DNA of 24,020 nucleotides from positions 1 through 24,020 of the IMG/VR virus record IMGVR_UViG_3300030339_000237, one strand, 5' to 3'. The position numbers were made by a program, and so were the translations under genes. This document shows, in pieces, positions 2,322-23,330 of the stretch. Position 1 is the first letter of the stretch, and each line of letters begins with the position of its first letter. Source of the stretch: a virus. The notes under the pieces are model-generated. The model made no database searches and was not told where the DNA came from. It was given only the letters and a program-made list of their open reading frames with translations.

Positions 2322-2350
2322 TTGACAACTAAATAATTAGGCGATATAAT
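2322..2350 (+). promoter_or_regulatory. Sigma-A promoter of leader cassette 1
   Basis: A perfect TTGACA (2322-2327) and a perfect TATAAT (2345-2350) are separated by exactly 17 bases. It drives the leader/terminator element at 2357-2445 and, by readthrough, the replication genes from 2482. The same arrangement recurs at 7890, 12645 and 23226. Confidence 0.85.
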
Positions 2351-2356
2351 GAAGGT

Positions 2357-2445
2357 ATAAATTAAATATCGGTCTGTGAGCACTCAAGTGCCGCCTAAAT
2401 TTGGAATGTTGAGAAATACATCCCTGTTTAGGTGGCACTTTTTAT
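2357..2445 (+). ncRNA. Leader RNA cassette 1 with intrinsic terminator
   Basis: The predicted transcript starts about 7 bases after the -10 box. It contains ATAAATTAAATATC, then TGAG, then a mini-hairpin GCAC-TCAA-GTGC (2380-2391). The 3' half of that mini-hairpin is also the start of a terminator: AAGTGCC (2386-2392) pairs with GGCACTT (2434-2440), and CCTAAA (2394-2399) pairs with TTTAGG (2427-2432). An inner ATGT/ACAT stem carries the loop TGAGAAAT. A T-tract follows directly. The two hairpins are mutually exclusive, as in an attenuator. It could instead be an autonomous small RNA. The HTH gene begins about 40 bases downstream. Confidence 0.7.
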
Positions 2446-2481
2446 TTTATCAAAAAATTGTTTCCGATAAGGAGGTCACTC

Positions 2482-2688
2482 ATGAAAATTACAGCAAAGC
2501 AAATATTTAGAGAATATCGGTTAAAGCACGGCTATTCAATAAAATCGCTTGCGAAAGAAGCTGGCACTTCTTATCGGATGGTATATCGACTTGAAACCGG
2601 CCATTCGGTTTATCCGACTTCCGCGAAGAAAATATGTACGGCTTTAAAATGTGAATTCGATGATGTGTTTCAGATAGAGGGCAACTAG
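2482..2688 (+). CDS. Helix-turn-helix protein, Xre/Cro type (68 aa)
   Basis: The start at 2482 is set by AAGGAGGT (2469-2476) at good spacing; an upstream in-frame TTG lacks such a site. The sequence has the order expected for an HTH_3 domain: REYRLKHGYSIKSLAKEAGTS, then YRMVYRLETGHSVYP, then a KKICTALKCEFDDVF segment as in small Cro-like proteins. It is the first gene after cassette 1 and sits one base before the primase-like gene, so it may regulate the replication module or help load replication proteins. It ends in TAG. Confidence 0.8.
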   Translation: MKITAKQIFREYRLKHGYSIKSLAKEAGTSYRMVYRLETGHSVYPTSAKKICTALKCEFDDVFQIEGN

Positions 2689-2689
2689 A

Positions 2690-3298
2690 ATGGATTCATT
2701 TATTTATCAGCAGATCAGAGAACGCACCAGCATCCTTGAAATTGCAGAGTTGTATGGAATTGAATTGAACAGGCAGCATGAAGCCTGCTGCCCATTTCAC
2801 AATGAAAAGACACCATCGTTTCGGGTGTATCCTCAAAATCAATCGTACTATTGCTTTGGGTGCGGTGAATCAGGTGATTCGGTTAAACTGGTGGCCAAGC
2901 TGAACCATATAAGTAATCACGAAGCGGCTAAGATTATCAATGTCCAGTTTGGCTTAGGCCTTGACTTTGATAATCAGAAAATAGATTTCAGGTTAGTAAT
3001 GCAGCGTGAAAAAGAACTAGCAATACGGCGTAAATTTGCCAAATGGGTTCATGATGCATTTATTGTTTTATCTACATATCGTCGGAAACTTTGGGCTGCG
3101 CGAAGCAATCCAGAATCAGATCTGTTTCAGGAGAGCTTGCAAAGCCTCGATACAATTGACTATTACCTTGACTGTCTGCGTGATGAGCCGCAGGAGTTCT
3201 ATAAAATTAACCGAAAAGTGGTGATGAATATTGAAAACAGAACCTATGGAGTCGGACAGCCTAACGACAGAGGAATTCTTAGAGAAGCTAACGGCTGA
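2690..3298 (+). CDS. CHC2 zinc-finger primase-like protein (202 aa)
   Basis: Residues 1-90 match the zinc-binding domain of DnaG-type primases: RTSILEIAELYGIEL, then CPFHNEKTPSF (zinc ligands C34 and H37), then YYCFGCGESGD (C55 and C58), then helices ending in the EAAKIINVQFG segment. The remaining 110 residues are helical and charged, without the TOPRIM catalytic domain, so this is a stand-alone primase zinc domain. It probably works with the helicase encoded by the following gene, whose start lies 68 bases inside this one. Such split zinc-finger/helicase pairs are common in phage replication modules. A primase catalytic centre is not visible in either protein. Confidence 0.85.
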   Translation: MDSFIYQQIRERTSILEIAELYGIELNRQHEACCPFHNEKTPSFRVYPQNQSYYCFGCGESGDSVKLVAKLNHISNHEAAKIINVQFGLGLDFDNQKIDFRLVMQREKELAIRRKFAKWVHDAFIVLSTYRRKLWAARSNPESDLFQESLQSLDTIDYYLDCLRDEPQEFYKINRKVVMNIENRTYGVGQPNDRGILREANG

Positions 3299-5141
3299 AA
3301 ATATTCTTGAAGATGAAACTTTCCTGCGAGTATTTGACATTGAAAATCAGCTTGAAAAGACGAAATTCATTACTGCTTTGCGCGGTAAATCAAAGAAGTT
3401 TGGATTGACAAAAGATTTTAATGACCTACTTCGCGGATGGCAAGCCGAATACACCGAGCGGACAAAGCAAGTCGGTTCCAATATAATCATGTTCACTGAT
3501 GCGCCGCTGGCTGCTTTACGTTGTGGAGACTGGTCCGCAAACGATCAGGGCATATGGAAGCGAGAGAATCAGAACAATTCGTCTTCATCTGTTACCGCTT
3601 GCACACATCCAATTGAGCCGATTGAACGGCTTTACAATATTGATACTCAAACTGAAAAAATTAAACTCGCGTTCTTCCGGGACCGTAAGTGGCAAAATGT
3701 TACGGTTGAATCCGGTATATGTGCCGACAAGAGCCAAATTGTCCGGGGTCTTGCCAACCGTGGTGTGGCTGTTAATTCAAAAAGTGCGCCGTACCTGGTC
3801 GAATACATATCAGATGTGATATCGAAGAATGAGCAGCAAATACCTCATTATAGCTCAGTAAGTCGGTTGGGGTGGGTTTTCAATGGGTTCGCACCTTATG
3901 ACGATAAAATTAAATATGACGGTGACAATGATTTTCGTGGATTATATGATTCCATTACCGAGCTGGGTGATTATGAGCAATGGAAATTATATGTTTCTAA
4001 TCTGCGCAAGAACAGTATCTATTTACGGCTGCAGATGGCCGCTTCATTTGCCTCACCATTAATCGATAAAGTATCAGCCCTACCATTTGTATTCCATCTA
4101 TGGGGCGATACGGGAACCGGTAAGACAGTCGGACTTATGGTGGCTATGTCAATATGGGGAAATCCGGCATTAGGCGGCCTTGTGAGAACCATGAATATGA
4201 CTGCTAACAACATGTCCAGTACGGCAAGCTTTCTCTATTCTGTTCCATTTGCTGGGGATGAGTTGCAGCTACTAAAATCCAATTGGGATAACAATTATGA
4301 CAAAATTATTATGTTCTGTTGTGAGGGCATTGACCGCGGCAGAAACGTATCGCGCAATGCGGTTGAACGTCTCAAAACGTGGAAGAACAGCTTTCTATTT
4401 ACAGGAGAGGAGCCAGTCACAAAATCAGCGTCCGGTGGTGGCGTAAAGAATCGCGTCATTGAGGCTGAAATAAAAACCTTTGTTGTTCAAAACGGTAACG
4501 ATGTGGTTAATTTCATAACAGATAATTACGGATTTTCCGGAAAGCATTTCATTGACTTCATTAAGAAGACCAACCTACGTCCGCAATATTCAGAAATATT
4601 TGGCCAGATTTTAAAAGAAACTGACACGACCGAAAAGCAAGCTATGGCTATGGCTTGTATGCTTCTGGCAGATGAACTGGCAACGAAGTGCATTTTTACG
4701 GGTGAAGTTCCACTCACGATTGAACAAATTAAACCGTTCTTAGCTAGTACAAGTGAGGTGGATTCGGCAACGAGGGCCTATGACTGGTCGGTTAACTGGG
4801 TCGCAAGGAATCAGAATCGTTTTTTGCAACCTGAAAACATTTCTTCCCATTCTGAAAACAATGGTGAAGTTTGGGGCAAGTTTGAGGACAACATTGCAAC
4901 TATAAATAAAGACGTTTTTGCAGAGCAACTTCGAAAAGCTGGGTTTGACTATTCAATGGTCAGCAAGTTTGCAGAGCGTGGACAGGTCGTTAAGAATTCT
5001 CAGAATAAATTGGTTCATCAAACTAAGGTATACGGGATTAAAGCCAGCTATATTAAACTCAAAATGAAGCTAAATTCAGATGAGGATGATATGGAAGAGC
5101 TGAACGACTTGGAAGAAGTCTTACCTCAAAATTTTAGGTAA
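3231..5141 (+). CDS. DUF927-type replicative helicase/ATPase (636 aa)
   Basis: The P-loop is GDTGTGKT (residues 292-299), preceded by FHLW and followed by VGLMVAMSIWGNP. A Walker B-like segment VPFAGDELQ falls near residues 339-346. These match the DUF927 domain, a superfamily-3-like helicase/ATPase typical of phage and plasmid replication proteins. The N-terminal 280 residues hold a helical domain and a mixed alpha/beta region, and the C-terminal part may bind DNA. The start is a TTG at 3231 behind GGTGAT, overlapping the zinc-finger gene by 68 bases; an ATG at 3246 is the alternative. The stop codon lies inside the first exact plus-strand box (5137-5144) of the downstream iteron-like cluster. 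Confidence 0.85.
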   Translation: MKTEPMESDSLTTEEFLEKLTAENILEDETFLRVFDIENQLEKTKFITALRGKSKKFGLTKDFNDLLRGWQAEYTERTKQVGSNIIMFTDAPLAALRCGDWSANDQGIWKRENQNNSSSSVTACTHPIEPIERLYNIDTQTEKIKLAFFRDRKWQNVTVESGICADKSQIVRGLANRGVAVNSKSAPYLVEYISDVISKNEQQIPHYSSVSRLGWVFNGFAPYDDKIKYDGDNDFRGLYDSITELGDYEQWKLYVSNLRKNSIYLRLQMAASFASPLIDKVSALPFVFHLWGDTGTGKTVGLMVAMSIWGNPALGGLVRTMNMTANNMSSTASFLYSVPFAGDELQLLKSNWDNNYDKIIMFCCEGIDRGRNVSRNAVERLKTWKNSFLFTGEEPVTKSASGGGVKNRVIEAEIKTFVVQNGNDVVNFITDNYGFSGKHFIDFIKKTNLRPQYSEIFGQILKETDTTEKQAMAMACMLLADELATKCIFTGEVPLTIEQIKPFLASTSEVDSATRAYDWSVNWVARNQNRFLQPENISSHSENNGEVWGKFEDNIATINKDVFAEQLRKAGFDYSMVSKFAERGQVVKNSQNKLVHQTKVYGIKASYIKLKMKLNSDEDDMEELNDLEEVLPQNFR

Positions 5142-5404
5142 GACATTAGGTAAGACATTTTTGAGCCGCAAAAACCGCATGGATACTGGATATTATTATA
5201 TATAAATATAAAAGTCTTACCATCTTACTTATCTTACCTACTTTTTAACGGTTATATAAAAAATATTAATTATGATGAAATTAATTATTTTCTTATAATA
5301 CGCTGACCCTACTGCGATTTTTAGGTAAGACGGTAAGACCATAGACGGGGCGCGGCTTTAAAGGGTGTAATTGTCTTACTTTTGGAACTTTTCAAAGGTA
5401 AGAC
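5118..5404. other. Candidate replication origin with GGTAAGAC iterons
   Basis: The octamer GGTAAGAC occurs exactly on the plus strand at 5137, 5149, 5324, 5332 and 5397. Its complement GTCTTACC occurs at 5118 and 5214. Seven-of-eight matches lie at 5231 (ATCTTACC) and 5373 (GTCTTACT), with a weaker one at 5222. Some copies are tandem, 8 or 12 bases apart. Between them are long A/T-only tracts (about 5190-5213 and 5246-5300) suited to strand opening. The cluster immediately follows the helicase gene. Iterons plus an unwinding region next to replication genes is the classic theta-origin layout; a transcriptional operator array is the alternative. No gene lies in 5142-5433. Confidence 0.65.
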
Positions 5405-5433
5405 ATCAACTATTATGATTAAGGAGAATTAAT

Positions 5434-6003
5434 ATGAGCGAAGAATTGTCCAAACAAGAAGCAGCAGAGCAACGCATATTGAAACGTACCAAAGAACATC
5501 CACCCAAAGCGTTAAAGAATATAAAAGGTGAAGAAATGGGTGCACACTTCAATCGAATGCAATTGTTTAACGAAGGAACTATTAAACGTAGGGAATCTGG
5601 ATTCAACAAGGCGGTGCTCACAGACACAGACGAATTCATTCACTCCATTGATGAATATGTCGATTTCGTAAATAGAATTAAGCTGTATCCATCGGTACAA
5701 GGGTTATGCTTATATCTTGATATTTCGGACAGTACGTTCTATGCAATCGAAAACTTGGGCGATTTGCGCTCGGAGATTATTAAAAAATACAAACTCTATA
5801 TTTCAGAGTTTTTTAACCAAAGTGGCCTTGCACAGTCAACAAATCCGGCATTCTCCATCTATTATGGCAAGTCCGTACTAGGCCAGTCAGACCAGACACC
5901 AATGACCCTGAACGTCAACATCGGACAACAGAATGCAATCCAACCCGCCGAGATACAGGATGTAATACAGCTCACGCCGGACGATTGGAAGCAGGGAGAG
6001 TAG
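5434..6003 (+). CDS. Probable terminase small subunit (189 aa)
   Basis: The protein has a charged N-terminus, then a central segment PSVQGLCLYLDISDSTFYAIE that reads as a helix-turn-helix, followed by a long helix (SEIIKKYKLYISEFFNQSG) and a stretch NPAFSIYYGKSVLGQSDQTP. This order (HTH, oligomerisation helix, then a region where other families have a KNNFGW-like motif) is that of many small terminase subunits, which recognise the packaging site. The C-terminus is proline- and acid-rich. It starts with AAGGAG at good spacing and ends in TAG. It is more than 3 kb from the large terminase, which is unusual; a general DNA-binding protein is the alternative. Confidence 0.55.
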   Translation: MSEELSKQEAAEQRILKRTKEHPPKALKNIKGEEMGAHFNRMQLFNEGTIKRRESGFNKAVLTDTDEFIHSIDEYVDFVNRIKLYPSVQGLCLYLDISDSTFYAIENLGDLRSEIIKKYKLYISEFFNQSGLAQSTNPAFSIYYGKSVLGQSDQTPMTLNVNIGQQNAIQPAEIQDVIQLTPDDWKQGE

Positions 6004-6007
6004 AGCG

Positions 6008-6181
6008 GTGCACTGTGTAGGCATGCTGAATAGACCGCACCAGTCCAAGCAGATCAGTCTTAATAGGCTGGTCTGCTGTTATTTTGCCCTGATTGATGTA
6101 CTGTACGCGCCAATATGGGCGGCTTTGATGGCTTGTCTTGTATCTGATTGGGTAACAGCGAACTACACTAATTACATATGA
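6008..6181 (+). CDS. Possible small membrane protein (57 aa)
   Basis: A GTG at 6008 follows GGGAGAG (5994-6000) by 7 bases; an ATG at 6023 is the alternative start (52 aa). The product has a basic N-terminus (MLNRPHQSKQ) and a hydrophobic stretch from about residue 25 to 48 rich in Leu, Val, Ile, Cys and Ala, consistent with one or two short membrane segments. No family recognised. A strong hairpin (6048-6077) lies inside the frame and may instead be the terminator of the upstream gene, so coding status is uncertain. Confidence 0.3.
   Translation: MHCVGMLNRPHQSKQISLNRLVCCYFALIDVLYAPIWAALMACLVSDWVTANYTNYI
6048..6083 (+). terminator. Possible terminator or cis-acting hairpin after the small terminase
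   Basis: AGCAGATCAG (6048-6057) pairs with CTGGTCTGCT (6068-6077) over ten positions with one G-T pair and a ten-base loop, followed by GTTATTTTG, an interrupted T-tract. It would end transcription of the small terminase, but it also lies within a plausible small ORF, so one of the two calls may be wrong. Confidence 0.35.
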
Positions 6182-6530: not shown

Positions 6531-6559
6531 TTGCAAAGTAAAAGTAATTACGCTATAAT
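6531..6559 (+). promoter_or_regulatory. Promoter of the serine recombinase gene
   Basis: TTGCAA (6531-6536) and a perfect TATAAT (6554-6559) are separated by 17 bases. The recombinase ATG at 6598 follows a GGAGGGG ribosome binding site (6585-6591). Unlike the four cassettes, no terminator hairpin lies between this promoter and its gene. Confidence 0.75.
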
Positions 6560-6597
6560 AAGAGCATGAAATACAAATCGAATCGGAGGGGTTTAAA

Positions 6598-7359
6598 ATG
6601 AAAAATGTTGTTGCATACTGCCGGGTATCCACAGACGGCCAGACCGGGGAAGATAAGTTCGGAATAGAATCGCAAAAGCAGCAGATCATGGAATACTGCC
6701 AAAAGAACGATATGCAGATTTCAGACTGGTTCATTGATGAAGGTGTGAGCGGAGTTAAAGAAGATCGCCCAGCATTTGATTAGATATTGTTTGATGATGG
6801 TGTTAAAAATCCTCCGGTCGAATGTGTAGTGGTTGCTAAGAGTGACCGTATTGCAAGAGAAATCAAATTGTATTTTTACTATGAAATGCTGCTACAGAAA
6901 AAGGGAATTGAACTTATCAGCGTGTCAGAAGATTTTGGAGAGTTTGGAGCATTTGCCCCAATGCTGAAAGCGTTCACTATGATTATTGCAGAGCAGGAAC
7001 GTATTAACATAAACAAGCGCACATCGTTTGGTCGGGGCGTGAAGTCCAGAAGCGGCGGTTATTCGGGCGGTAAGGCTCCGTATGGCTATGTGGTGAGGAA
7101 TAAGCGACTTGAGATAAATGAGCCGGAAGCAGCAGTTGTCCGGTTGGTTTTTTCCGAAAGAGATAAAGATAACACGCTGAACACAATTTGTAATTTTCTA
7201 AATGATCAGGGATATAAAAGTCGTAAAGGCGGGCCGTTCTATATTTCAAACGTGCAAAGCATTTTAGGGAATAAAAACACTTATCTCGGCATGTACAAAT
7301 ACGGTAAAAGCGATCAGTGGGTTGAGGGGCAGCAGGAAGCGATTTTGACAGGGGAATAA
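6598..7359 (+). pseudogene. Serine recombinase interrupted by an in-frame amber codon
   Basis: Without the stop this would be a 253-residue serine recombinase. The resolvase domain begins VVAYCRVSTDGQ, with nucleophile Ser11 and Arg9, and continues through KSDRIAR and GEFGAFAPMLKAF. The DNA-binding recombinase domain follows, from GYSGGKAPYGY to the end. A TAG at 6781-6783 (codon 62) splits it inside RPAFD-stop-ILFDDG, a site where intact relatives have an ordinary residue; the frame is otherwise open and intact on both sides. There is no zinc-ribbon or coiled-coil region as in large integrases, so it resembles the short phage recombinase/invertase type. A single nonsense mutation or readthrough are both possible. 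Promoter and ribosome binding site remain intact. Confidence 0.85.
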
Positions 7360-7364
7360 AACCG

Positions 7365-7413: not shown

Positions 7414-7443
7414 TTGGATATATTTTAAGAAGGGAATGCACTT

Positions 7444-7881
7444 ATGGCCGAATATACTGCGAATATTGTTAAGTTTATAATGGAAATTTTTCCTATGATT
7501 GGAATTGTGTCCACGGCGACGGTAGCGTCAATCGCCACATCTTTATTGAGAGCCAAGTTTAAAAAATCAGATCCAAAGCCGTCTCTTGAAGTAAAAATTA
7601 AAAAGCTATCATCATCACTTTACGACTCTGCGAGTCTAATTAATGAAGTCGAAAAAGAAATAGCACAAAAAGAAGGAATTGTCGTAAAACTGCAAAAGGA
7701 TGCAGATACATATAGCGAACTGTCAAAGCTTAAAAAGAGTGAGGTAGAAGCAATCACAAGTGTGTTACAAACGACACTAGATAAGCAAGGTGATAAATCG
7801 TTTTGGTCAGGTGTCATTGTAAATGCGCTGTTCTTTATTGCCGGTGCTATTGTGTCCGTCTTAGTCTCATTCTTGAAATAA
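7444..7881 (+). CDS. Membrane-anchored coiled-coil protein, moron-like (145 aa)
   Basis: There is one hydrophobic segment near the N-terminus (about residues 8-36), a long charged helix likely to form a coiled coil (about 45-115, rich in Lys, Glu and Ser), and a second membrane segment at the C-terminus (about 120-143). The central helix would therefore sit on one face of the membrane, tethered at both ends. AAGAAGGG precedes the ATG. The gene has its own promoter and lies between a terminator and the next cassette promoter, which is the layout of a phage moron gene. Superinfection exclusion or a host-interaction role is inference; no family recognised. Confidence 0.7.
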   Translation: MAEYTANIVKFIMEIFPMIGIVSTATVASIATSLLRAKFKKSDPKPSLEVKIKKLSSSLYDSASLINEVEKEIAQKEGIVVKLQKDADTYSELSKLKKSEVEAITSVLQTTLDKQGDKSFWSGVIVNALFFIAGAIVSVLVSFLK

Positions 7882-7889
7882 AAACAATA

Positions 7890-7918
7890 TTGACAATCCT
7901 GCATTATAGCGGTACAAT
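7890..7918 (+). promoter_or_regulatory. Sigma-A promoter of leader cassette 2
   Basis: TTGACA (7890-7895) and TACAAT (7913-7918) are separated by exactly 17 bases, eight bases after the stop of the membrane coiled-coil gene. It drives the leader element at 7925-8021. Confidence 0.85.
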
Positions 7919-7924
7919 ATAGAC

Positions 7925-8021
7925 AGATTAATATAAATTTAATAAATTGCTCTGAGAGCGCTTTAAGCGCCGGCTAGTAGAAAGTTGGAAAATACTTTCT
8001 GTTTGGTCGGCGCTGTTTTTT
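7925..8021 (+). ncRNA. Leader RNA cassette 2 with intrinsic terminator
   Basis: The A/T-rich 5' end includes ATATAAATTTAATAAATT. CTGAGA leads a mini-hairpin, GCGC-TTTAA-GCGC (7958-7970), whose 3' half overlaps the terminator arm AGCGCCG (7966-7972). That arm pairs with CGGCGCT (8008-8014). An inner stem AGAAAGT (7979-7985) with ACTTTCT (7994-8000) has the loop TGGAAAAT, close to that of cassette 1. GTTTTTT follows. The next start codon is about 45 bases downstream. Confidence 0.7.
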
Positions 8022-8066
8022 ATTTAAACGCAGCGGAGCGAATTGAATCGGAATGGAGCGTTAATT

Positions 8067-8309
8067 ATGAAGTACAGAAAGAAGCCAGTTTCTATCGAAG
8101 CGATCCAATATGACGGAAACAATGCAAAGGAAATTCTTGATTTTGCTGGGACATCGAATGGCGTATGTATCTCTGACGGCTCATTACTAATCAAAACGCT
8201 TGAAGGAACCATGACTGCCAGCGTCGGCGATTTCATCATCAAAGGAGTAAATGGTGAGTTCTATCCCTGCAAGCCGGACATATTTGAGAAAACATACGAA
8301 CCGGCCTAA
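8067..8309 (+). CDS. Conserved phage hypothetical protein (80 aa)
   Basis: The protein begins [17 protein letters not shown] and ends with a segment in which [19 protein letters not shown] is followed by EKTYEPA. Both ends match a very widespread small protein of phages and prophages of Firmicutes and other bacteria, whose function is unknown. I chose ATG 8067 because family members start at MKYRKKP and a GGAATGGAG site precedes it; an in-frame TTG at 8043 is less likely. It is the first gene after cassette 2. Confidence 0.85.
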
Positions 8310-8338
8310 TTAATCCGCTTACACCTTTTTTCCTCCTA

Positions 8339-8370
8339 CCGCCCCGGTTTTCTTTCATTTTCCGGGGCGG
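8339..8370. repeat. GC-rich perfect inverted repeat
   Basis: CCGCCCCGG (8339-8347) and CCGGGGCGG (8362-8370) form a perfect 9-bp stem around a 14-base pyrimidine-rich loop (TTTTCTTTCATTTT). No T-tract follows on either strand, so it is not a standard intrinsic terminator. It sits in a 156-base gap between two small genes and could be an RNA stability or processing element. Confidence 0.6.
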
Positions 8371-8465
8371 ACATATGCCAGCTGAGCGCGGTAGTAATCG
8401 CGGCCATGCAAGCCCGACACTTGCGGCTGGAACCAGAATGATTTTATTTTAATTGAGGTAAGAAC

Positions 8466-8750
8466 ATGAAATTTCATATTGACACAGGCAGCAACATTTC
8501 TCATACATGCACATTGTGTGGAAAGCGTATGAAGAAAAATATATATCCGTTCAGCTATATGGACGAAGAAATATTTCATTGGTGGGTATTCTTCCATTAC
8601 TTGTTTAAGCATGGCATAGGTGATTGGAAAGTCAAAACAATCATAAAGCATATTTTTATTTTAATCTTGACGATTTCCATTACAGCAATTACAGCGCCGA
8701 TAAAATTAATTTGCTTGCCATTTTGGTTGTTGTACGAATATGTACTTTAA
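8466..8750 (+). CDS. Hypothetical membrane protein with a CxxC knuckle (94 aa)
   Basis: The N-terminal part has CTLCGKRM (residues 16-23), half of a zinc knuckle, and an aromatic-rich middle with FHWWVFFHYLF near residue 37. The C-terminal third is strongly hydrophobic (about residues 62-92: Ile/Leu/Thr rich, broken by TAPIKLICLP), likely one or two membrane helices. TTGAGGTAAGAAC precedes the ATG. No second CxxC pair is present, so zinc binding would need a partner. Function unknown. Confidence 0.65.
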   Translation: MKFHIDTGSNISHTCTLCGKRMKKNIYPFSYMDEEIFHWWVFFHYLFKHGIGDWKVKTIIKHIFILILTISITAITAPIKLICLPFWLLYEYVL

Positions 8751-8810
8751 ATAATTTATGGAGGTACAGTCCAATGCAGCGTTAATCGGTACGAACATAA
8801 TTTTATAATT

Positions 8811-8835
8811 GCGCTCTGTGGGACTAGCAGAGCGC
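8811..8835 (+). repeat. Perfect hairpin upstream of the tRNA-like element
   Basis: GCGCTCTG (8811-8818) pairs perfectly with CAGAGCGC (8828-8835) around a nine-base loop, TGGGACTAG. No T-tract follows. It lies nine bases before the tRNA-like minihelix and could be part of one processed transcript. Confidence 0.6.
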
Positions 8836-8843
8836 ACATACAT

Positions 8844-8898
8844 GCACTGCGGCGGTAAAACGTAAAAGCGTGAGAGGGTTCGAATCCCTCGCGGTGCA
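8844..8898 (+). tRNA. tRNA-like minihelix (truncated tRNA)
   Basis: The T-arm is perfect: GAGGG, TTCGAAT, CCCTC (8874-8890). It is followed by GCGGTGC and a discriminator A (8891-8898), which pairs with GCACTGC (8844-8850) over seven positions with one G-T pair. Only 23 bases separate the 5' acceptor arm from the T-arm, where a full tRNA has about 42, so a normal D arm plus anticodon arm cannot form. A small ACG/CGT hairpin is possible there. CCA is not encoded. It is either a deleted tRNA or a tRNA mimic. Confidence 0.6.
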
Positions 8899-8962
8899 AA
8901 ACATAGTTTCGTGAAGCTGCGCACAACTCATGAAGCTGACAGCCGGCAAAGACCGGCAACAT

Positions 8963-9048
8963 GGTAAAGTATGCAAACGGTTAAAGCTGGCTGCCTGTAA
9001 AGCAGTTCCCTTCGGGGTTCGATAGTTCGAATCTATCCTTTACCACCA
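8963..9048 (+). tRNA. tRNA-Tyr (anticodon GUA)
   Basis: The acceptor arm GGTAAAG (8963-8969) pairs perfectly with CTTTACC (9038-9044), followed by A and an encoded CCA (9045-9048). The anticodon loop CTGTAAA (8995-9001) gives GTA at 8997-8999. The variable arm is long (CCC-TTC-GGGG), as expected for bacterial tRNA-Tyr, and the T-arm is GATAG, TTCGAAT, CTATC. The D stem is weak, with only two clear pairs. The length is 86 bases. Phage tRNAs supplement host decoding. Confidence 0.9.
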
Positions 9049-9079
9049 AATTAACAAAAATGGCAGGAGAAAACAAAAT

Positions 9080-9367
9080 ATGAAAGCAGTTAATCTCAAT
9101 ATTTATGGGGTAAAATGCGATAACCCAAACTGTGATTATAGGGACATGACGGTGCCTATAAGTGATTATAAGAAATACTTAAATAAGCCTTGCCCAAAAT
9201 GTGGAGCAAACCTGTTGACCAAAGCAGATTATAAAGCAATGAAGCGGCTTATGAGGATTGCAAAGTTTTTCAATTTTGTTTTCCGCCACAAATATTGTAA
9301 TCCGGCCGAAATGGTAACAGGCCATATCGAAATGAACGGAACAGGGAAAATGAAGATAAACTTATAA
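9080..9367 (+). CDS. Zinc-ribbon hypothetical protein (95 aa)
   Basis: Two knuckles, CDNPNC (residues 13-18) and CPKC (residues 38-41), frame a short beta-rich segment with DMTVPISDYKKYLNKP, a classic zinc-ribbon layout. The second half is basic and helical (MKRLMRIAKFFNFVFRHKY) and ends in a glycine/methionine-rich tail. GGCAGGAG precedes the ATG. It sits directly upstream of the large terminase with a 27-base gap, so it may be co-transcribed with packaging genes. Specific function unknown. Confidence 0.7.
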   Translation: MKAVNLNIYGVKCDNPNCDYRDMTVPISDYKKYLNKPCPKCGANLLTKADYKAMKRLMRIAKFFNFVFRHKYCNPAEMVTGHIEMNGTGKMKINL

Positions 9368-9394
9368 AATCAGCACGGCGAAAGGAGCAATAGC

Positions 9395-11179
9395 ATGGGA
9401 CGTAAACCACTGGCACAACCGAATCCAGCTATCGCTCAAAGTATGCAGCGTGACAAGGCGACACAGGATGTTGAGCGGCTTAAACAAGAATTGCACGGAA
9501 TTCGTTCAGGGCCAGAATTCGGACTGTATCAAAGCACCATAAAACGCGGCGCTCTGGTCAAAGCTTATAAAACACTCGGTGAAACATACCTTATGTGTTC
9601 TACCGCTCGCGAATTAATTTCTATGGTTAAGGAGCGTAACGATGAAATCGGTGCAATCCCAGACAGCCATAAAACGGCGATATGGAATCACTTTAAGGCT
9701 GCATATCGGGAACTTGGCCCATATTCTTTTTATCACTTTTTAGTGTATATGGAATGGAGTTATCCGCCCGAAATGAAATTCTACGCGAATAGAATCTGCG
9801 TACTACAGAATTGGGCATATCAGCTTGAAAGACTTGAATTCGGTGAGCTGGACATTCTTGGACTGTCCGCGCCGCCACGTTCCGGTAAGACTGGTATAGG
9901 GGAGCTTTATTTATCATGGGTTATGGGACGTCACCCGGATAAAAGCATTTTGTTTGCCACACATACAAACGGTATGGCGGTAAAGGCTCAGGCCGATGTT
10001 TATAATCTGATTACCGATCCCCGCCGCGGATGGGGAGAAATATTTCCGGGATTCACGATTGATAAAAGTGCCGAATACTTGTGGGTTGACCTATCGCCAA
10101 AAAGCGCTCCAAACATGTACAAGTCAATTTACTTCCGAGGGATCGACGGTTCGTTCGCAGGTATTTTGGAAGCATCATGGCTGATATATTGCGATGATTT
10201 AATCAAGAATATTGAAGAAGCCATGAACCCGGACAGATTAGATAACGCTTGGCAGAAATACGGCACCGATATTTCGCAGCGCCGTGTGGACGATAACGTA
10301 AAGGAATTGCACATTGCGACTCGCTGGTCGATCAACGATGTTGTTTCAAGGTTGGAAGACGAAAACGAAGGAAATCCGCGCGCAGAATTTATTAAAGTGC
10401 CCGGGCTGAACGAAAGCGGAGAAAGCAATTTCATGTTCCCATGTCGGCCTATGACAAAAGAACATTTCGAGAAGCTCCGCAACAAAATGGACGATGTTTC
10501 ATTCGAGTGTATTATTCAGCAAAACCCGATTGAGCGGGACGGGCTGTTATTCCCCGAGAGTGTATTGGTTTCAAACGAATACGATGTTTTGCCGCCGGGA
10601 GAACCAGATAGAATATGTTTCGCTTGTGATGTGGCCTGGGGCGGAGGGGATTACCTGTCAATGCCGTTTGGAAAAGTATACGGAATGGATGTCTATATTG
10701 ATGATGTGGTGCATTCACCGGCTGATAAGTATACGACGAAGCCGCTCGTTGTAGGTGCAATTATCCGGAATAATGCGACTGCCGGATTTTTCGAAGCGAA
10801 CAATGGTGGCGATGAATATTCGGACGACATCGAGAGATCGCTTCGTGAAAAAGGTTATCGGTGTGCTATTCGATGGGCTAGAGCACCCACAAATAAGAGC
10901 AAACTAGACCGTATTGTCGCTTGTTCACCGGAAATCAAAGGAGCCATACAGGACGGCAGTGGGTACCGGCTACATTTTAAATCAAAGAAACTCCGTAAAG
11001 GTGATAAGGATTACGAAATGTATATGAAGCACCTGACCGGATTTAATCAGGGATCAAAATATCAAGGCAAGCAAAAGGATGATGCGGCTGATGGTACGGC
11101 CTCATTGATTACAAACGTTCTCGGAGGAGTACCCACCGGAAAAGTTGGCACATTTTCAAGAAGTTTACTCGGAATATAA
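9395..11179 (+). CDS. terL: Terminase large subunit (594 aa)
   Basis: This is the packaging motor and headful/cos nuclease. The ATPase domain has a Walker A motif SAPPRSGKT (residues 158-166) and a Walker B segment WLIYCDD with acidic pair D267-D268. The coupling region follows (ELHIATRWSINDVVSRLED). The RNase H-like nuclease domain has FACDVAWGGGD with D412 as likely metal ligand, then GFFEANNGGDEYSDD and a late DDAADGTASLI segment that supplies the last acidic residues. Length is normal for phage TerL with a long N-terminal extension. GAAAGGAG precedes the ATG, and the portal gene follows after 12 bases. Confidence 0.95.
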   Translation: MGRKPLAQPNPAIAQSMQRDKATQDVERLKQELHGIRSGPEFGLYQSTIKRGALVKAYKTLGETYLMCSTARELISMVKERNDEIGAIPDSHKTAIWNHFKAAYRELGPYSFYHFLVYMEWSYPPEMKFYANRICVLQNWAYQLERLEFGELDILGLSAPPRSGKTGIGELYLSWVMGRHPDKSILFATHTNGMAVKAQADVYNLITDPRRGWGEIFPGFTIDKSAEYLWVDLSPKSAPNMYKSIYFRGIDGSFAGILEASWLIYCDDLIKNIEEAMNPDRLDNAWQKYGTDISQRRVDDNVKELHIATRWSINDVVSRLEDENEGNPRAEFIKVPGLNESGESNFMFPCRPMTKEHFEKLRNKMDDVSFECIIQQNPIERDGLLFPESVLVSNEYDVLPPGEPDRICFACDVAWGGGDYLSMPFGKVYGMDVYIDDVVHSPADKYTTKPLVVGAIIRNNATAGFFEANNGGDEYSDDIERSLREKGYRCAIRWARAPTNKSKLDRIVACSPEIKGAIQDGSGYRLHFKSKKLRKGDKDYEMYMKHLTGFNQGSKYQGKQKDDAADGTASLITNVLGGVPTGKVGTFSRSLLGI

Positions 11180-11191
11180 AGGGGTGACAAA

Positions 11192-12667
11192 ATGTTTAGA
11201 GGGCGCAGACAGATTTTAACATCCTGCTTGCCAAAGCAGATGCAACCGAAAGGGTATTCAGGGGCCACACTAGATCAAAACACACTGCCCAAGGAAATTT
11301 CAAGCGCAATAATGATTCATAACCGAAATGTTGAGGATATTCGCAAATTGAGGGCCGTTTTTAAGGGCGATCAGGATATTTTAAAGCGCGGCAAGGATGG
11401 CACTGACCGGTTCGTAAATAATATGGTTGTCATAAATTATGCGAACGCTTTCACCCGGCAAATTGTGGGATATACATATCCTGATGGGATTCAGTTTGTC
11501 CAGAACGATGAAACTTTTTTGGTCGACGTGGAAAAAATCAATCGGTTCATGAAAGCCGAAGATAAAAACACGCTCGATAAAATCATGGCGGACGAGCAAT
11601 CTATTTTTGGTACTCATTTCAGAGCAATTTTGCCCGATGCGATTATGCCGGACGAAACTCCGTTTGAAATCGTAAATTTGAACCCTGATTATACATTTGT
11701 CGCGTATTCTTCTTATAACACGCAGCTACCTGTGTACGGTTGCACGTTCTACCCGATTTTAGACGGGCAGACCATCACCGGATATGTTTACCAGATTTAT
11801 ACAAGCAATATGTGTTACACCTATAAGTCTATATCCACTTACGGAGTTCAAACACAGGATTTTGTATCAGCCAAACCGCATATTTTACGGTCGGTTCCAA
11901 TTATAGAGTACGCAAACAATGAGTTCCGCATGGGTGACTGGGAAATGGCGGTTGAACTGTTCAACTCAATCAATAATATGGCATCGGATAGCTTGAATGA
12001 TGTTACGCAGACAGTACTTTCTTATCTTGTATTGTTTGGAGTGGATACACCTACGCCAGAAGAACTCGCAGACATGAAAAAGAATCGCACCATGACGTTT
12101 CCGGGCGCTGTGGGAGTCACACAGAACGCAAAGTTCTTGACTGCACAGCTTGACGGCAGTTCGGCAGATTTGCTCCGTACATATCTTGAAAATGCGCTGC
12201 GCGTGGTTGTTGGAATCCCTGATCGAAACAGTTCCGGCGGCGGTGATACGGGAGCGGCAATCGATGCGAAGAACGGTTGGCGTGAAATTGATACGGTTGC
12301 GCGGAATAAGACAATGTTTACCGAAGCGGCTGAACGGAAACTGTTAAGAATTGCATTGCAGATCCTTTCACCAAAACATGTTTCTTCTGACCTGACCGTC
12401 GTCGATGTTGACATTAAAATTCCAAGAAACAAGAGCGATAACCTGCAGACCAAAACACAGGCTGCGCTCAACATGAGCCAGATGGGTATGGATAAGGCTG
12501 ATATTGTGGAAGTATTGGACACAACCACAGACCATGAAGGGCAAATTAAGCGCTGGGAAGCGGCGGAAAAGCAGAAGCAAGTTGCATCGGTTAAGGCCAC
12601 ACCGCCCGACCCAAATAAAACTGATCCAGTCCAGCCCGTACCTGTTGACAATTCTGCGAAACAATAA
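11192..12667 (+). CDS. Portal protein, SPP1 gp6 type (491 aa)
   Basis: The dodecameric portal forms the DNA entry vertex. The sequence follows the SPP1-like family: an N-terminal helical region (HNRNVEDIRKLRAVFKGDQDIL), NMVVINYANAFTRQIVGYTYPDG, an alpha/beta domain with PFEIVNLNPDYTFVAYSS, and a long helical C-terminal clip/stem part with NSSGGGDTGAAIDAKNGWRE. The tail is Gln/Lys/Pro rich. GGGGTGAC precedes the ATG. The last codons also encode the -35 box of cassette 3: the TTGACA at 12645 lies in the Val-Asp-Asn codons, and the stop is immediately followed by its -10 box. No MuF-type minor head gene follows, which is uncommon for this family. Confidence 0.92.
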   Translation: MFRGRRQILTSCLPKQMQPKGYSGATLDQNTLPKEISSAIMIHNRNVEDIRKLRAVFKGDQDILKRGKDGTDRFVNNMVVINYANAFTRQIVGYTYPDGIQFVQNDETFLVDVEKINRFMKAEDKNTLDKIMADEQSIFGTHFRAILPDAIMPDETPFEIVNLNPDYTFVAYSSYNTQLPVYGCTFYPILDGQTITGYVYQIYTSNMCYTYKSISTYGVQTQDFVSAKPHILRSVPIIEYANNEFRMGDWEMAVELFNSINNMASDSLNDVTQTVLSYLVLFGVDTPTPEELADMKKNRTMTFPGAVGVTQNAKFLTAQLDGSSADLLRTYLENALRVVVGIPDRNSSGGGDTGAAIDAKNGWREIDTVARNKTMFTEAAERKLLRIALQILSPKHVSSDLTVVDVDIKIPRNKSDNLQTKTQAALNMSQMGMDKADIVEVLDTTTDHEGQIKRWEAAEKQKQVASVKATPPDPNKTDPVQPVPVDNSAKQ

Positions 12668-12673
12668 TATAAT
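12645..12673 (+). promoter_or_regulatory. Sigma-A promoter of leader cassette 3, inside the portal 3' end
   Basis: Perfect TTGACA (12645-12650) and perfect TATAAT (12668-12673) are separated by 17 bases. The -35 box and spacer lie entirely inside the portal coding sequence, and the -10 box starts one base after its stop. It feeds cassette 3 and then scaffold and capsid genes, a sensible place to boost structural-protein expression. Confidence 0.85.
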
Positions 12674-12679
12674 AATATT

Positions 12680-12751
12680 AATTAAATATCACGAAATGAG
12701 CGCTTGACGCCGATTGACTTGTAGAAATACAGGCCAGTCGGCGTTTTTTTA
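12680..12751 (+). ncRNA. Leader RNA cassette 3 with intrinsic terminator
   Basis: The 5' end has ATTAAATATCACG and then ATGAG, as in cassette 4. A weak mini-hairpin GCG-CTTGA-CGC (12700-12710) overlaps the terminator arm. ACGCCGA (12707-12713) pairs with TCGGCGT (12738-12744) and extends inward with one mismatch and a few G-T pairs to the apical GT-AGAAAT-AC loop, matching cassettes 1 and 2. Seven T residues follow. The scaffold gene starts about 80 bases later. No gene is seen in 12668-12831. Confidence 0.7.
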
Positions 12752-12831
12752 TTTATCAAAAAAAGTGCGAAGATGCACGGTAAAAAGTACGAAAGACAAA
12801 GAAGTCTTTAAAATGCAAAAGGAGAATTATT

Positions 12832-13377
12832 ATGGCAGATTTAAAAACACTTTTAGGCGACCAATTCAAAGAGGGCATGACCATCGAAGAAATCACCGCG
12901 GCACTGGCAGATAAAACTTTTGTGGATCCGTCCACTTTGCCGAAATCGGTTACTAAGGATATTTTCGATAAAACCGCAAGTGAACTGGCAAAGGCAAAAA
13001 AAGACCTCGCCGCAAAGCTGACCACTGATGAACAGACAGTCGCCGCGCAAAAAGAAATTCAAGACCAAATGGCGGCACTTCAAAAGGAAAATTCCCAAAT
13101 GAAGCTGAAAGAAAGTTTCATCACAAACGGTTATGATGCTAAAACGGCTGCGGAACTCGCAACAGCATATTCCGAGGGCGACATGGGCAAATTCGCCACA
13201 TTAAATGCAAAGTTCATGGAAGGCACAAAAACAGCGTTACAGGCAACCATAAAAGAACAATTGCTAAAAGATACACCTGGTCTGCAGGCGGGAAATCCGG
13301 ACAATCCCGACTCTCCGAGTGCCGGAGCCGCAGCGGCCCAAGCGTACAATCAGCAGTTCGTACAACAGAAGGAGTGA
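12832..13377 (+). CDS. Capsid scaffold protein (181 aa)
   Basis: The protein is acidic and helical. A short N-terminal region has MTIEEITAAL, a long coiled coil spans about residues 45-95 (Ala/Lys/Gln/Glu rich), and an alanine/proline-rich tail with PDNPDSPSAGAAAAQ follows. Its position between portal and decoration/major capsid genes and its helical, low-complexity character are those of GP20-type scaffolds, which guide procapsid assembly and are removed before DNA fills the head. AAGGAG precedes the ATG. No protease gene is visible nearby, so exit without proteolysis is likely (inference). Confidence 0.85.
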   Translation: MADLKTLLGDQFKEGMTIEEITAALADKTFVDPSTLPKSVTKDIFDKTASELAKAKKDLAAKLTTDEQTVAAQKEIQDQMAALQKENSQMKLKESFITNGYDAKTAAELATAYSEGDMGKFATLNAKFMEGTKTALQATIKEQLLKDTPGLQAGNPDNPDSPSAGAAAAQAYNQQFVQQKE

Positions 13378-17266: not shown

Positions 17267-17291
17267 TTAAAATAACAGGAGGAAATAAAAC

Positions 17292-20900: not shown

Positions 20901-22685
20901 GCAGTCACGCTGGCAATCAATGCGATTCTTGAGCCGGGAACGGCAACATATGACAATCTCACAAAATTTACGAATAAGTATTACAGCGACACACAGGCAG
21001 AGCTTGACAAACTGGGCACCCAATTGTCTAACGAAGTAAATAAAGCTTTCGCAGACAACGTTCTGACTGAGGGCGAAATGATTAATATTCAGAAGATTCA
21101 AGCAAAAATGTCTGAATTACTTCAAAAAATCGCAGATCAAAAATATAAAGCAACATTGACTTCGCTCGAAATGGATACCAAAGGGGCAGAAATCACAGCA
21201 GATAGTTTTAAAGCACTCCAAGCAAAAATACAAAGTGGAATTGATGAAGAATTAAAGTCAGCTGGAACATCAAAAATCACGCTTATTACTCAGGCACAGA
21301 CAAAGCTTGAGGTTGACAGTAAAACAAATGCAACTCAGGCAAAAATAGCTTACGATCAAACCGTGTCAGACATTCAGTACGCTTATAATAAGGAAAAAGC
21401 TACTCTAGAAATTTCTGGATTGAATGTTAGTTTAAACACACTAAATGCTAAATTCAAGACAGAGGTTGCTGGCGCATCAACAATTTGGTCAACAAACTTA
21501 ACAGATGCATTCAACAACGCTATAAAAAATACAAGTCCAGACCCAAACTCAGTTAAGTCAACCGTAACGAGCTTAGAATTACTCTATAACAACGAACTCA
21601 GCAAAATGAATATTTCAGATTCCACAAAAAGCGCTTTGAAAGACCTGTTAAAACAGATAGAACCCACGGAAACAAGTCTTAAAGAAATCAGAGCTTCCGC
21701 ACTTGCGGCGGGGCAAAAAGTTCCAGAAGGTATAAACAGCGCATTAACCCAAATTGAAACACTAAAGGCGATATCTGGAGATGTTGATGCTATTGATTAC
21801 TTGATCGGGCAACATCTTTCGACGGATCCAAAATTTTTAGAAACCGTAAACAAAGCGCAACAGGGCGGCATTAAAATTAGCGACACATTTAGAGATGGAC
21901 TGCTTTCTGGCAAAGCTGCAACGGAAAAAAGTGCAAACGATTTGGGAGCAGGAACGGCCAATAGTGTTGTAAGTGGTGCAAATAACAAGGTGCCAGATCT
22001 AACAGAAGCGGGGAAAAACACAATTCAAGGACTTTGGGACGGAATGATCAGCAAGAAAAAAGAAATGGATCCGTGGATGGTGACGATGTCCGAAAACCCA
22101 TTGAAAGCTTTTAACGAAGCAAACGGAATACATTCACCATCAACAAAGTTTGAAGAAAGTGGTGAAAACATTGTTCAGGGCTTGTGGAATGGTATTTCCA
22201 CAGTGTGGGATAAATTTACGACATGGTGGGAGGGCCTTAAACTCAAAACCCCTCATTTGGAATTCACATGGGAAAGTTTAGACAACTACGATAATCTTGC
22301 TGCAAAGGCTGCTAAAAAGCTTGGGCTCTCAAGTGTCCCAACGGTTAGCGTTGATTGGTACGCTCAGGGCGGTATTTTTGATTCTCCTACTATGATTGGT
22401 GTGGGAGAAAAAGGGAAAGAAGCGGTTGTTCCACTTTCAGAAGATTCCGAATGGATTAAGAGTCTATCCACACAGATTAATAAGGATACTGAAAAATCGT
22501 CAAATTCAGGCAGTAGCAGCAATGCAAACGATATGACAAAAATTGCACTAATGGCTGAACAAAACAAATTATTGCAGGCACTTCTTGAAAAGGACACAAC
22601 AATTAAAGTCAACGAGAAAGTGTTGGCGAAAAGCGTAAATAAAACCAATTCAAATAGTGGTTACAATTTAGGATTACAATCATAA
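17976..22685 (+). CDS. Tape measure protein (1569 aa)
   Basis: The start ATG at 17976 follows GGAGG (17962-17966) at nine bases; a longer in-frame start at 17952 is upstream of that site. The N-terminal 260 residues are coiled-coil and Ser/Lys rich. Residues about 260-520 are the core tape-measure region, with AYYILKRVESVLSGF and IMKQTGNAQGDMARTIQTPAN. About 640-870 is a long Gly/Ala/Leu-rich hydrophobic block, probably inserted into the host membrane at injection. Helical repeats follow, and the C-terminus has YAQGGIFDSPTMIGVGEKG with EAVVPLS. At about 0.15 nm per residue the tail would be near 235 nm (rule-of-thumb estimate). Confidence 0.95.
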   Translation: MAEATIDRLQIEINAKASNSVDGLEKLAQSIQKLKSSVGSGVDKLSGIASSLSNLNTSITSLKGKSGTITSLVSSLDKLNNVDTSKIGGKIESLKTSLNSLGSMSSEIKTLVNSLGNLAGSDTGNVSQNALKTEAAIAKAQATIDKSALTSAKSQQGLVEIAAKNNQIAESAKFAAEAEQSLNDAIARATSKSPVSTGTLPTSATRIPSATASEITGSGNLGLTESMESFSSSAKNASKSVKEVKDSTDSAKKSVSSFGESANNAFRLANLYAAYYILKRVESVLSGFITNITSYIENMNLFDVAMGSAAQSGEKLANSLQNVLGIDSGEAERYMGLFQQIDTSFGVTNKQAVTMSENLTQLGYDIASFYNISTATSFEKLESGITGQTKALRQLGIDTSQARLQQELYDLGIKAKVTDLNQADKAELRYIAIMKQTGNAQGDMARTIQTPANALRVLTAQLAIAGRAIGSIFIPALESILPPVIAAVEVIGDMASELASLAGFEMPKIDYSSLKDVTSEADDAATATSAIGDNADKSKKQIQNLIGGFDELNILDTSSTETSAGAGTDGTGSVLGGIDLPSYNALSTAVSGNIKKLKAEIMDFLDALKTDPLKVFSDALYGVNGAFTDLWKWLTKLDYADILTGISAAIMTYGLTKNPLLALAVGAITTALSVLLPQATKIDLLGGSLATLGLALVMKTLTGMPFNMALGISALATSGLVELLGKDNAIKLLATAVTALGVGLLTYKATGNLPLAVAVGAASAAVAGISLHFSDMKLASSLLAGVSAALLTFKWGEFSAGSAGLVGLGVAVASFAELNSFAPVLNAGLLGLAGMITGVGLAIKLGFGVDGAIALAVVGAIVGIGTAVWQASEDAKKADLESRFGSIALSAQDVEDVAKRITTTPWTVKIDAAIDAADKVKTFETTLKTEIETLNKLDWKVSVGIKLTKDEQSTYKSTITSFISDAKSYVQSQQYAVTLAINAILEPGTATYDNLTKFTNKYYSDTQAELDKLGTQLSNEVNKAFADNVLTEGEMINIQKIQAKMSELLQKIADQKYKATLTSLEMDTKGAEITADSFKALQAKIQSGIDEELKSAGTSKITLITQAQTKLEVDSKTNATQAKIAYDQTVSDIQYAYNKEKATLEISGLNVSLNTLNAKFKTEVAGASTIWSTNLTDAFNNAIKNTSPDPNSVKSTVTSLELLYNNELSKMNISDSTKSALKDLLKQIEPTETSLKEIRASALAAGQKVPEGINSALTQIETLKAISGDVDAIDYLIGQHLSTDPKFLETVNKAQQGGIKISDTFRDGLLSGKAATEKSANDLGAGTANSVVSGANNKVPDLTEAGKNTIQGLWDGMISKKKEMDPWMVTMSENPLKAFNEANGIHSPSTKFEESGENIVQGLWNGISTVWDKFTTWWEGLKLKTPHLEFTWESLDNYDNLAAKAAKKLGLSSVPTVSVDWYAQGGIFDSPTMIGVGEKGKEAVVPLSEDSEWIKSLSTQINKDTEKSSNSGSSSNANDMTKIALMAEQNKLLQALLEKDTTIKVNEKVLAKSVNKTNSNSGYNLGLQS

Positions 22686-22690
22686 AAATA

Positions 22691-22721
22691 GCAGCCAGTG
22701 TAAAAACTGGCTGCTTGTTTT
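22691..22721. terminator. Bidirectional intrinsic terminator after the tape measure gene
   Basis: GCAGCCAGT (22691-22699) pairs perfectly with ACTGGCTGC (22706-22714) around GTAAAA, with TTGTTTTT after it on the plus strand and TATTTTTA after it on the minus strand. It ends the tape measure transcript and the convergent minus-strand gene. Confidence 0.9.
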
Positions 22722-23165
22722 TCATTCGTAAACCCAATTTCCGTTATCATCTTTCCACCGATGCGAACTCTTTGTAGGGGCTGAATCAGCGTTTGATTTA
22801 TCAGATCTGATTGGCTCATTTGCACCACTTGGCTTGTCTGGCTGGCCTACTTGACTTTTGTTGAGGACTGCTTCTCGCGCCGCTTTCAGTTCAAAAAATA
22901 TATTTTCTTGCCTTTGAATAATAGTGCCTAAGCAGTAGAAAAGAAAACCGCATAGAGCGGAAGAAGCTGTAACCGTGAAGAAGATTGCCCAGCCGAATAC
23001 ACGAGGTGCTACGTCTAATGGGTATAGAGCAGGGTCACTAAGATTATTGGTTAGATAATCTGCTGGGATAGTCTTTAAAACACAGCCACATATTATAGCC
23101 ACAATAAAGCCAATCACAATTATTACAATTGCTATCTTCTGAATACCATTTTTTTCATTACTCAT
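22722..23165 (-). CDS. Two-helix membrane protein on the minus strand, moron-like (147 aa)
   Basis: Two membrane segments fall at about residues 10-30 (IAIVIIVIGFIVAIICGCVL) and 57-83, with a short loop between. A charged helix follows (about 84-105), then a Pro/Ser/Asn/Lys-rich linker and a C-terminal WKDDNGNWVYE tag-like end. GGAGGGG precedes the ATG. It is the only convincing minus-strand gene in the window, wedged between the tape measure and distal tail genes with its own promoter and sharing a bidirectional terminator. This is the usual mark of a moron, expressed independently and possibly from a prophage. Function unknown. Confidence 0.8.
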   Translation of the reverse strand: MSNEKNGIQKIAIVIIVIGFIVAIICGCVLKTIPADYLTNNLSDPALYPLDVAPRVFGWAIFFTVTASSALCGFLFYCLGTIIQRQENIFFELKAAREAVLNKSQVGQPDKPSGANEPIRSDKSNADSAPTKSSHRWKDDNGNWVYE

Positions 23166-23183
23166 ATAATCCCCTCCATTACC

Positions 23184-23214
23184 ATTATAATATCATTATG
23201 TGCGGAAAAGTCAA
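23184..23214 (-). promoter_or_regulatory. Promoter of the minus-strand membrane protein
   Basis: Read on the minus strand, TTGACT (23214-23209) is followed by TATAAT (23189-23184) at 19 bases, or by TATTAT at 16 bases. The gene's ribosome binding site and ATG lie just downstream. It stands back to back with the cassette 4 promoter. Confidence 0.65.
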
Positions 23215-23225
23215 TAAAAACCATC

Positions 23226-23254
23226 TTGAATACTTTGAATAATCATGATATAAT
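23226..23254 (+). promoter_or_regulatory. Sigma-A promoter of leader cassette 4
   Basis: TTGAAT (23226-23231) and perfect TATAAT (23249-23254) are separated by 17 bases. It is divergent from the minus-strand promoter, 11 bases away, and drives leader element 4, restarting tail transcription after the moron gene. Confidence 0.8.
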
Positions 23255-23260
23255 AAAATC

Positions 23261-23330
23261 ATAAATTAAATACCACGCAATGAGGCTTTAAGCCCGATAG
23301 ACCGATTGATTTCGGTTTATCGGGCTTTTT
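23261..23330 (+). ncRNA. Leader RNA cassette 4 with intrinsic terminator
   Basis: The 5' end is ATAAATTAAATACCACG, nearly the same as in cassettes 1 and 3, then ATGAG. Mini-hairpin GGCT-TTA-AGCC (23284-23294) overlaps the terminator arm. The terminator stem runs from AAGCCCGATA (23290-23299) through ACCG (23301-23304), pairing with CGGTTTATCGGGCTT (23313-23327), and is closed by ATTGATTT; it differs from the GAAAT loop of the other three. A T-tract follows. The distal tail gene starts 30 bases later. Confidence 0.7.

Follow-up and report, generated by a model that had tools for sequence, protein, structure and literature searches.

To our knowledge, the timing of late gene expression in phages of Gram-positive anaerobes is poorly known next to that of lambda. 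Among the closest described systems, RAT leaders carry a small hairpin that shares bases with the lower stem of a rho-independent terminator, the two being mutually exclusive (PMC9981650), and in the ANTAR RNAs (EutV, NasR) a mini-hairpin upstream of the terminator yields an arm to the terminator (PMC3369931). Lambda Q requires a binding site in the DNA and sigma-dependent pausing, both adjoining the promoter (PMC7171158); the LoaP leaders (dfn, mln) have a separate UNCG hairpin and a terminator, with a NusG paralogue as the factor and a Gram-positive host (PMC12691694); and conAn, put and EAR act from the leader RNA of mobile or host operons, enabling polymerase to read through intrinsic terminators (PMC8955417). 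Here we compare with these a promoter-leader-terminator unit that occurs four times in one phage record.

Cassettes ahead of different gene blocks

The DNA analysed (the window) is the 24,020-base IMG/VR viral record IMGVR_UViG_3300030339_000237, which has its head and tail genes (terminase, portal, capsid, tape measure) in one block and primase/helicase genes in another; at 24 kb the record is probably partial, and the host is probably a member of the Clostridia. The architecture reported in the initial annotation, i.e. a sigma-A promoter whose spacer is 17 bases long, followed by a short leader and then a strong intrinsic terminator, was found in all four cassettes (C1-C4, Table 1), which precede different gene blocks as described there, namely replication (C1), phrog_419, tRNA and terminase (C2), scaffold and capsid (C3) and distal tail (C4). 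In a consensus scan of the window, few or no plus-strand sites scored better than their promoters, and the terminator hairpins folded at -26.6 to -33.7 kcal/mol with z of -4.2 to -6.0 versus shuffles. The next gene, placed 25-90 bases downstream by the annotation, starts about 32-88 nt away in the window copies when measured from the stem.

Table 1. Cassette parts and neighbouring features in the window
Feature	Position	Strand	Basis or remark
C1, whole cassette	2322-2450		
C1 sigma-A promoter, TTGACA-17-TATAAT	2322-2350	+	12/12 consensus match
C1 leader, AAATTAAATA-N8-TGAG	2359-2380	+	sequence
C1 mini-hairpin, GCAC-TCAA-GTGC	2380-2391	+	candidate antiterminator; folding, covariation, core scan
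C1 intrinsic terminator	2386-2450 (stem 2386-2440, then U-rich tail)	+	5' arm overlaps mini-hairpin
C1 downstream gene, small HTH regulator	2482-2688	+	followed by primase and helicase genes
C2, whole cassette	7890-8024		
C2 sigma-A promoter, TTGACA-17-TACAAT	7890-7918	+	11/12 consensus match
C2 mini-hairpin, GCGC-TTTAA-GCGC	7958-7970	+	3' of TGAGA; folding, covariation, core scan
C2 intrinsic terminator	7966-8024 (stem 7966-8014)	+	folding, covariation
C2 downstream gene, phrog_419	8067-8309	+	no assigned function; followed by tRNA and terminase genes
C3, whole cassette	12645-12755		
C3 sigma-A promoter, TTGACA-17-TATAAT	12645-12673	+	12/12 match; overlaps portal gene end
C3 mini-hairpin, GCG-CTTGA-CGC	12700-12710	+	folding, covariation, core scan
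C3 intrinsic terminator	12707-12755 (stem 12707-12744)	+	folding, covariation
Two tandem hexaloop hairpins, GTGC-GAAGAT-GCAC and AAAGAC-AAAGAA-GTCTTT	12765-12809 (12765-12778, 12792-12809)	+	between C3 terminator and scaffold gene
C3 downstream gene, probable scaffold	12832-13377	+	position; scaffold relatives
Capsid gene, after the scaffold gene	starts 13727		identified as major head protein
C4, whole cassette	23226-23337		
C4 sigma-A promoter, TTGAAT-17-TATAAT	23226-23254	+	10/12 consensus match
C4 mini-hairpin, GGCT-TTA-AGCC	23284-23294	+	folding, covariation, core scan
C4 intrinsic terminator	23290-23337 (stem 23290-23327)	+	folding, covariation
C4 downstream gene, phrog_1194	23360-23737	+	distal tail region

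By pattern and covariance searches, four further copies were recovered from two diverged contigs, L021 (IMGVR_UViG_2156126002_000375) and L238 (IMGVR_UViG_3300038365_000209), whose terminases are about 43% and about 38% identical to that of the window, respectively, while the L238 capsid is 69% identical to the window capsid. The single L021 copy lies upstream of tRNAs and terminase and corresponds to C2. The three copies in L238 (L238_2, L238_3 and L238_4) correspond to C2, preceding a sigma-like gene and terminase, to C3, at the portal gene end ahead of scaffold, and to C4, after an antisense accessory gene and ahead of the distal tail block; C4 and its counterpart have nearly the entire terminator hairpin in common.

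Several neighbouring genes were recorded besides. A serine recombinase gene of the window (6598-7359) is broken by an in-frame TAG (6781-6783), and the L238 homologue spans both halves. Between the tape measure gene and C4 (22690-23214), a bidirectional terminator (22690-22715) is followed by a small antisense gene with its own promoter, and the matching position of L238 holds another antisense gene, which is lipoprotein-like. The C2-equivalent cassette of L238 is flanked by genes for an MqsA-type antitoxin, a SecB-like chaperone and then the sigma-70-like protein (7573-10001), and an MqsR toxin domain was detected among 30 proteins of L238, L021 and the window. A gene at 11087-11518 (minus strand) of L467, a contig of L238, encodes a Spo0A C-terminal DNA-binding domain (E 1.3e-30).

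The cassette was absent from the near relatives L236, L240, L470 and L478, and since close relatives such as L236, L470 and L478 do without it, phages of this type do not depend on it. A strict-pattern scan of genomes from 84,980 species yielded no family member; judging from these genomes, the family is either rare among sequenced species representatives or the scan pattern is too strict, and the IMG/VR scans likewise used strict patterns. The covariance model R1 gave no match in 391 Clostridia genomes, though with only 10 candidates scored per genome, too few for the result to be informative; protein searches for host prophages returned partial or distant relatives, none with the cassette, phage and plasmid collections contained relatives that all lacked the core, and BLASTN of C4 against phages produced chance matches only. 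A locus in an unrelated phage (L060, 6077-6230), in which scaffold and capsid genes are preceded by a promoter of perfect consensus, the identical tract TATAAATTAAATA and two terminators in succession, was considered as a member and rejected, having a different structure and failing the core scan described below; its leader GGCATGAG is complementary to the terminator 3' arm, which makes it a possible analogue in which the pairing choice is reversed. In L249 (5040-6200), several promoter and hairpin-terminator units with a repeated TTGACTTCATC..TATAAT promoter stand in a row and form another kind of array of short transcription units.

A short hairpin sharing one arm with the terminator

The mini-hairpin and the terminator had been listed as successive parts of the unit; both were present, but not as separate elements, since in 8/8 copies the 3' arm of the mini-hairpin is the start of the terminator 5' arm and the two structures are mutually exclusive. 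The C1 leader, for example, reads UGA-GCAC-UCAA-GUGC-CG, of which GUGCCG begins the terminator 5' arm and pairs again with the 3' arm, and the arm pairs held in common with the terminator are GCAC/GUGC in C1, GCGC/GCGC in C2, GCG/CGC in C3 and GGCU/AGCC in C4. UGAG and CCG were invariant in all eight copies, whereas the loop length varied from 3 to 7 nt and only three pairs of the mini-hairpin were certain in four of the eight. CCG follows the mini-hairpin and, together with the UG-A of UGAG, can lengthen the stem by two pairs, G-C and U-G, with a bulged A, a shape that we take to recall protein-bound hairpins such as the MS2 coat-protein operator and treat as a lead. The mini-hairpin alone folded at -2.2 to -6.4 kcal/mol versus -26.6 to -34.4 kcal/mol for the full RNA; being far weaker than the full fold, it should leave termination as the default unless it is stabilised.

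That stem sequences differ while pairing is kept, as first proposed from the window copies, was borne out by compensatory changes across the eight copies. In an alignment trimmed by hand (loops cut, C2 and L021 stripped of the two extra bases), 91.7% of the mini-hairpin pairs were standard and covariation scored 0.405, against 0.105 for shuffles, of which 1/500 scored as high, and slid versions of the alignment all scored far lower; the terminator reached 97.5% pairing and a score of 0.771, equalled by 0/500 shuffles. In an exact permutation test on the outermost three bases of the 5' arm, 48 of 40,320 orders paired fully (p = 0.0012), a value that, like all these counts and statistics, overstates independence, the eight copies representing only four positional groups on three contigs. 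Because the mini-hairpin 3' arm doubles as the terminator 5' arm, three strands change together. Beyond the window, the arm-sharing pairing is kept in the L021 and L238 copies.

The core was then scanned without regard to promoters, as UGA(GA)GNN..N'N'C-CG followed by a terminator, on both strands of 484 fetched loci (4.5 Mb). Nine matches were obtained, of which eight were the family members and one was a tRNA-like false match, and 16 control motifs gave 0-4 matches each. In an earlier scan for TGAG with an arm-sharing mini-hairpin and terminator (466 loci, 4.2 Mb, both strands), all six unique matches belonged to the family, with 0-3 matches for eight control tetramers; the loci had been fetched partly by related patterns, so that these scans measure specificity and not true abundance. 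Upstream of 8/8 family members the promoter matched the consensus at 9-12 of 12 positions, while of all TGAG sites in these records, family sites included, only 7.8% had a match of at least 9/12.

These counts bear on a simpler explanation, by which each cassette merely joins a constitutive promoter to an insulating terminator, the short hairpin arose by chance and the genes are served by leaky readthrough. C4 does restart transcription after the bidirectional terminator at 22690-22715 and the antisense accessory gene, and arm-sharing mini-hairpins do arise by chance, at 18 of about 407 terminators with family members counted. However, all eight copies carry the arm-sharing hairpin with invariant UGAG and CCG, for which independent chance at that background would be very small, and it is hard to see why essential late genes should stand behind a promoter that runs straight into a strong terminator unless there is an opening route. 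We regard simple insulation as distinctly improbable.

The leader tract was less constant than the core. The initial annotation had reported an AAATTAAATA-like tract with a looser match in C2; the tract was indeed present in C1-C4 (10/10 in C1 and C4, 9/10 in C2 and C3), but C2 is no looser than C3, and the distance from tract to TGAG is exactly 8 nt in all four window copies. Outside the window, the tract matched at 9-10/10 in L021 and 9/10 in L238_3, and at only 6-7/10 in L238_2 and L238_4, no better than a shuffled leader. Although stressed in the initial annotation, it is poorly kept in two of the three L238 copies, and with the tract weak or absent there it is not essential; it may belong to the recognition site in some lineages only, outside the core. 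The combination of promoter and tract was discarded as a family signature, most matches in viral contigs being unrelated leaders, including many from marine phages, and those in genomes being riboswitch-like leaders. Control by a leader peptide was discarded as well: a three-codon frame at TGAG occurs in C3 (ATG AGC GCT TGA), C4 and L238_2 with no ribosome site upstream, and is absent from C1, L021, L238_3 and L238_4.

A tract near identical in all four window copies, and a promoter and terminator proper to each unit, would suit autonomous small RNAs of about 75-100 nt that act in trans or serve as decoys for one RNA-binding protein. Against this, every copy has a co-directional gene starting a short way past its terminator, the terminator stems and loops diverge, which limits the common seed to the AU tract and UGAG, with the tract not kept in L238_2 and L238_4, and the competing hairpin is left unexplained; we consider such RNAs very unlikely.

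Tandem hairpins ahead of the scaffold gene

The window contains a further pair of hairpins, with purine hexaloops, in the stretch that separates the C3 terminator from the scaffold gene (Table 1). Tandem arrays of two or three hairpins with the loop AGAGAA (range RRAGAW), spaced 26-36 nt, were found at 19 distinct phage loci including the window (12765-12809), L469 (8947-9017), L236 (3965-4038), L240 (6144-6222), L307 (6713-6783), L260 (11268-11340), L286 (13737-13804) and 12 more. Each array lies shortly upstream of a gene of about 180-207 codons, whose start codon mostly lies 24-44 nt after the start of the last loop, and TAA..CGCA spacers often follow; two of the genes tested matched the PHROG head scaffolding family, the others being placed by position. 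When all hexamer loops were enumerated, AGAGAA came first with 25 tandem pairs, followed by AGGGAA with 5 and AGTGAA with 3, and unrelated loops gave one. Double-sided changes occurred in 54/108 stem cells with 100% pairing and a nearly invariant loop; as the arrays had been selected for paired stems, the independent evidence lies in the loop and the position.

Eight array loci compared with Rfam gave no match to the element, and these sequences indicate that the array is probably an undescribed cis-acting RNA element. Its hexaloops fit the A1, G4 rule of ANTAR RNAs, by resemblance only, but no terminator overlaps them. Since the scaffold of phage P22 is known to autoregulate, the array perhaps controls scaffold synthesis by analogy. 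The related phage contig L286 also encodes a Pistol ribozyme (6532-6604, minus strand).

Candidate mechanism and comparison with described systems

Starting from what was observed directly, i.e. the promoter sequence, the order of the parts, the mutual exclusion of the two structures and the conservation of core and position, we on balance favour the reading that each cassette is a transcription attenuator heading a transcription unit and opened by a factor that stabilises the mini-hairpin. The attenuator was one of the options offered at the outset, and the mutual exclusion strengthened it. The host sigma-A promoter would fire constitutively, and the nascent leader would form the small hairpin directly 3' of UGAG, ahead of the terminator; unheld, the hairpin would lose its 3' arm to the stronger terminator and the RNA would end at ~75-100 nt. 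A RAT- or ANTAR-like factor, most likely a phage RNA-binding protein, would bind the UGA-bulge hairpin and block the terminator, letting polymerase enter the gene block. Recognition in RNA is favoured over a fixed DNA site because the core lies anywhere between 17 and 52 nt from the -10 box, depending on the copy. With the same core preceding several blocks, a single factor could open these jointly, and a host factor is also conceivable; in L238 the candidates are two sigma-like proteins (904-1425 and 9453-10001). A multi-site, phage-wide RAT-like regulon, in which one phage RNA-binding protein opens all blocks via the bulged-A hairpin, is put forward from these sequences more tentatively, as possible rather than probable.

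The main competitor to an attenuator is processive antitermination as practised by lambda Q or LoaP, in which the hairpin would be a loading site that alters polymerase, so that this and later terminators are ignored, and its overlap with the terminator would be incidental. The strong promoter, short leader and terminator, followed by a late gene block, are indeed laid out like lambda pR'-tR', a LoaP leader likewise joins a small RNA hairpin to an intrinsic terminator (PMC12691694), and processivity would benefit several blocks per genome. The general layout is as far as the pR'-tR' likeness drawn in the initial annotation holds: a strict Q reading is weakened by the unconserved spacers and the variable core distance, the cassettes occur as several units per genome, and no member of the Q family was found among the phage proteins scanned. 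Unlike the LoaP hairpins, the cassette mini-hairpins have no UNCG loop, and a joint scan of 30 proteins of L238, L021 and the window detected no NusG/LoaP, ANTAR or CAT_RBD domain; the strict sharing of one arm is also left unexplained, and we judge processive antitermination unlikely.

The view that no named RNA family fits was upheld by Rfam 15, all matches apart from tRNAs falling below the gathering score: the window gave only a tRNA at that score, and C1, C4, L021 and one L238 copy searched at E<=1, like the C3 region, gave sub-threshold matches only, besides tRNAs. The conAn, put and EAR elements, compared in sequence through Rfam scans only, differ in that one element heads one long operon. 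The literature searched contained no description of a unit of this type standing ahead of multiple blocks in a single phage, and an attenuator-type unit repeated in this way appears to be new. Repeated ahead of every block, an attenuator would give the phage a compact switch acting across the genome and, if true, could offer a route to a new RNA-binding regulator. Its core motif (UGA bulge, GC stem, CCG and the common terminator arm) is specific enough to be searched for without protein homology.

As in the BglG/SacY/LicT RAT leaders, hairpin and intrinsic terminator are mutually exclusive in 8/8 cassette copies; unlike them, the cassettes show no conserved RAT sequence of about 30 nt, their stems varying around UGAG and CCG as the only invariant parts, their hairpin is shorter, and they precede many phage blocks. 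No CAT_RBD domain was detected among the 30 proteins, though the window is probably partial and the factor could be the host's. ANTAR RNAs have two tandem hexaloop hairpins (A1, G4), whereas a cassette has a single hairpin with a variable loop. The cassette is therefore not filed under RAT, ANTAR, Q or LoaP, whose defining sequence features it lacks; by analogy, its mechanism would resemble RAT and ANTAR more than lambda Q.
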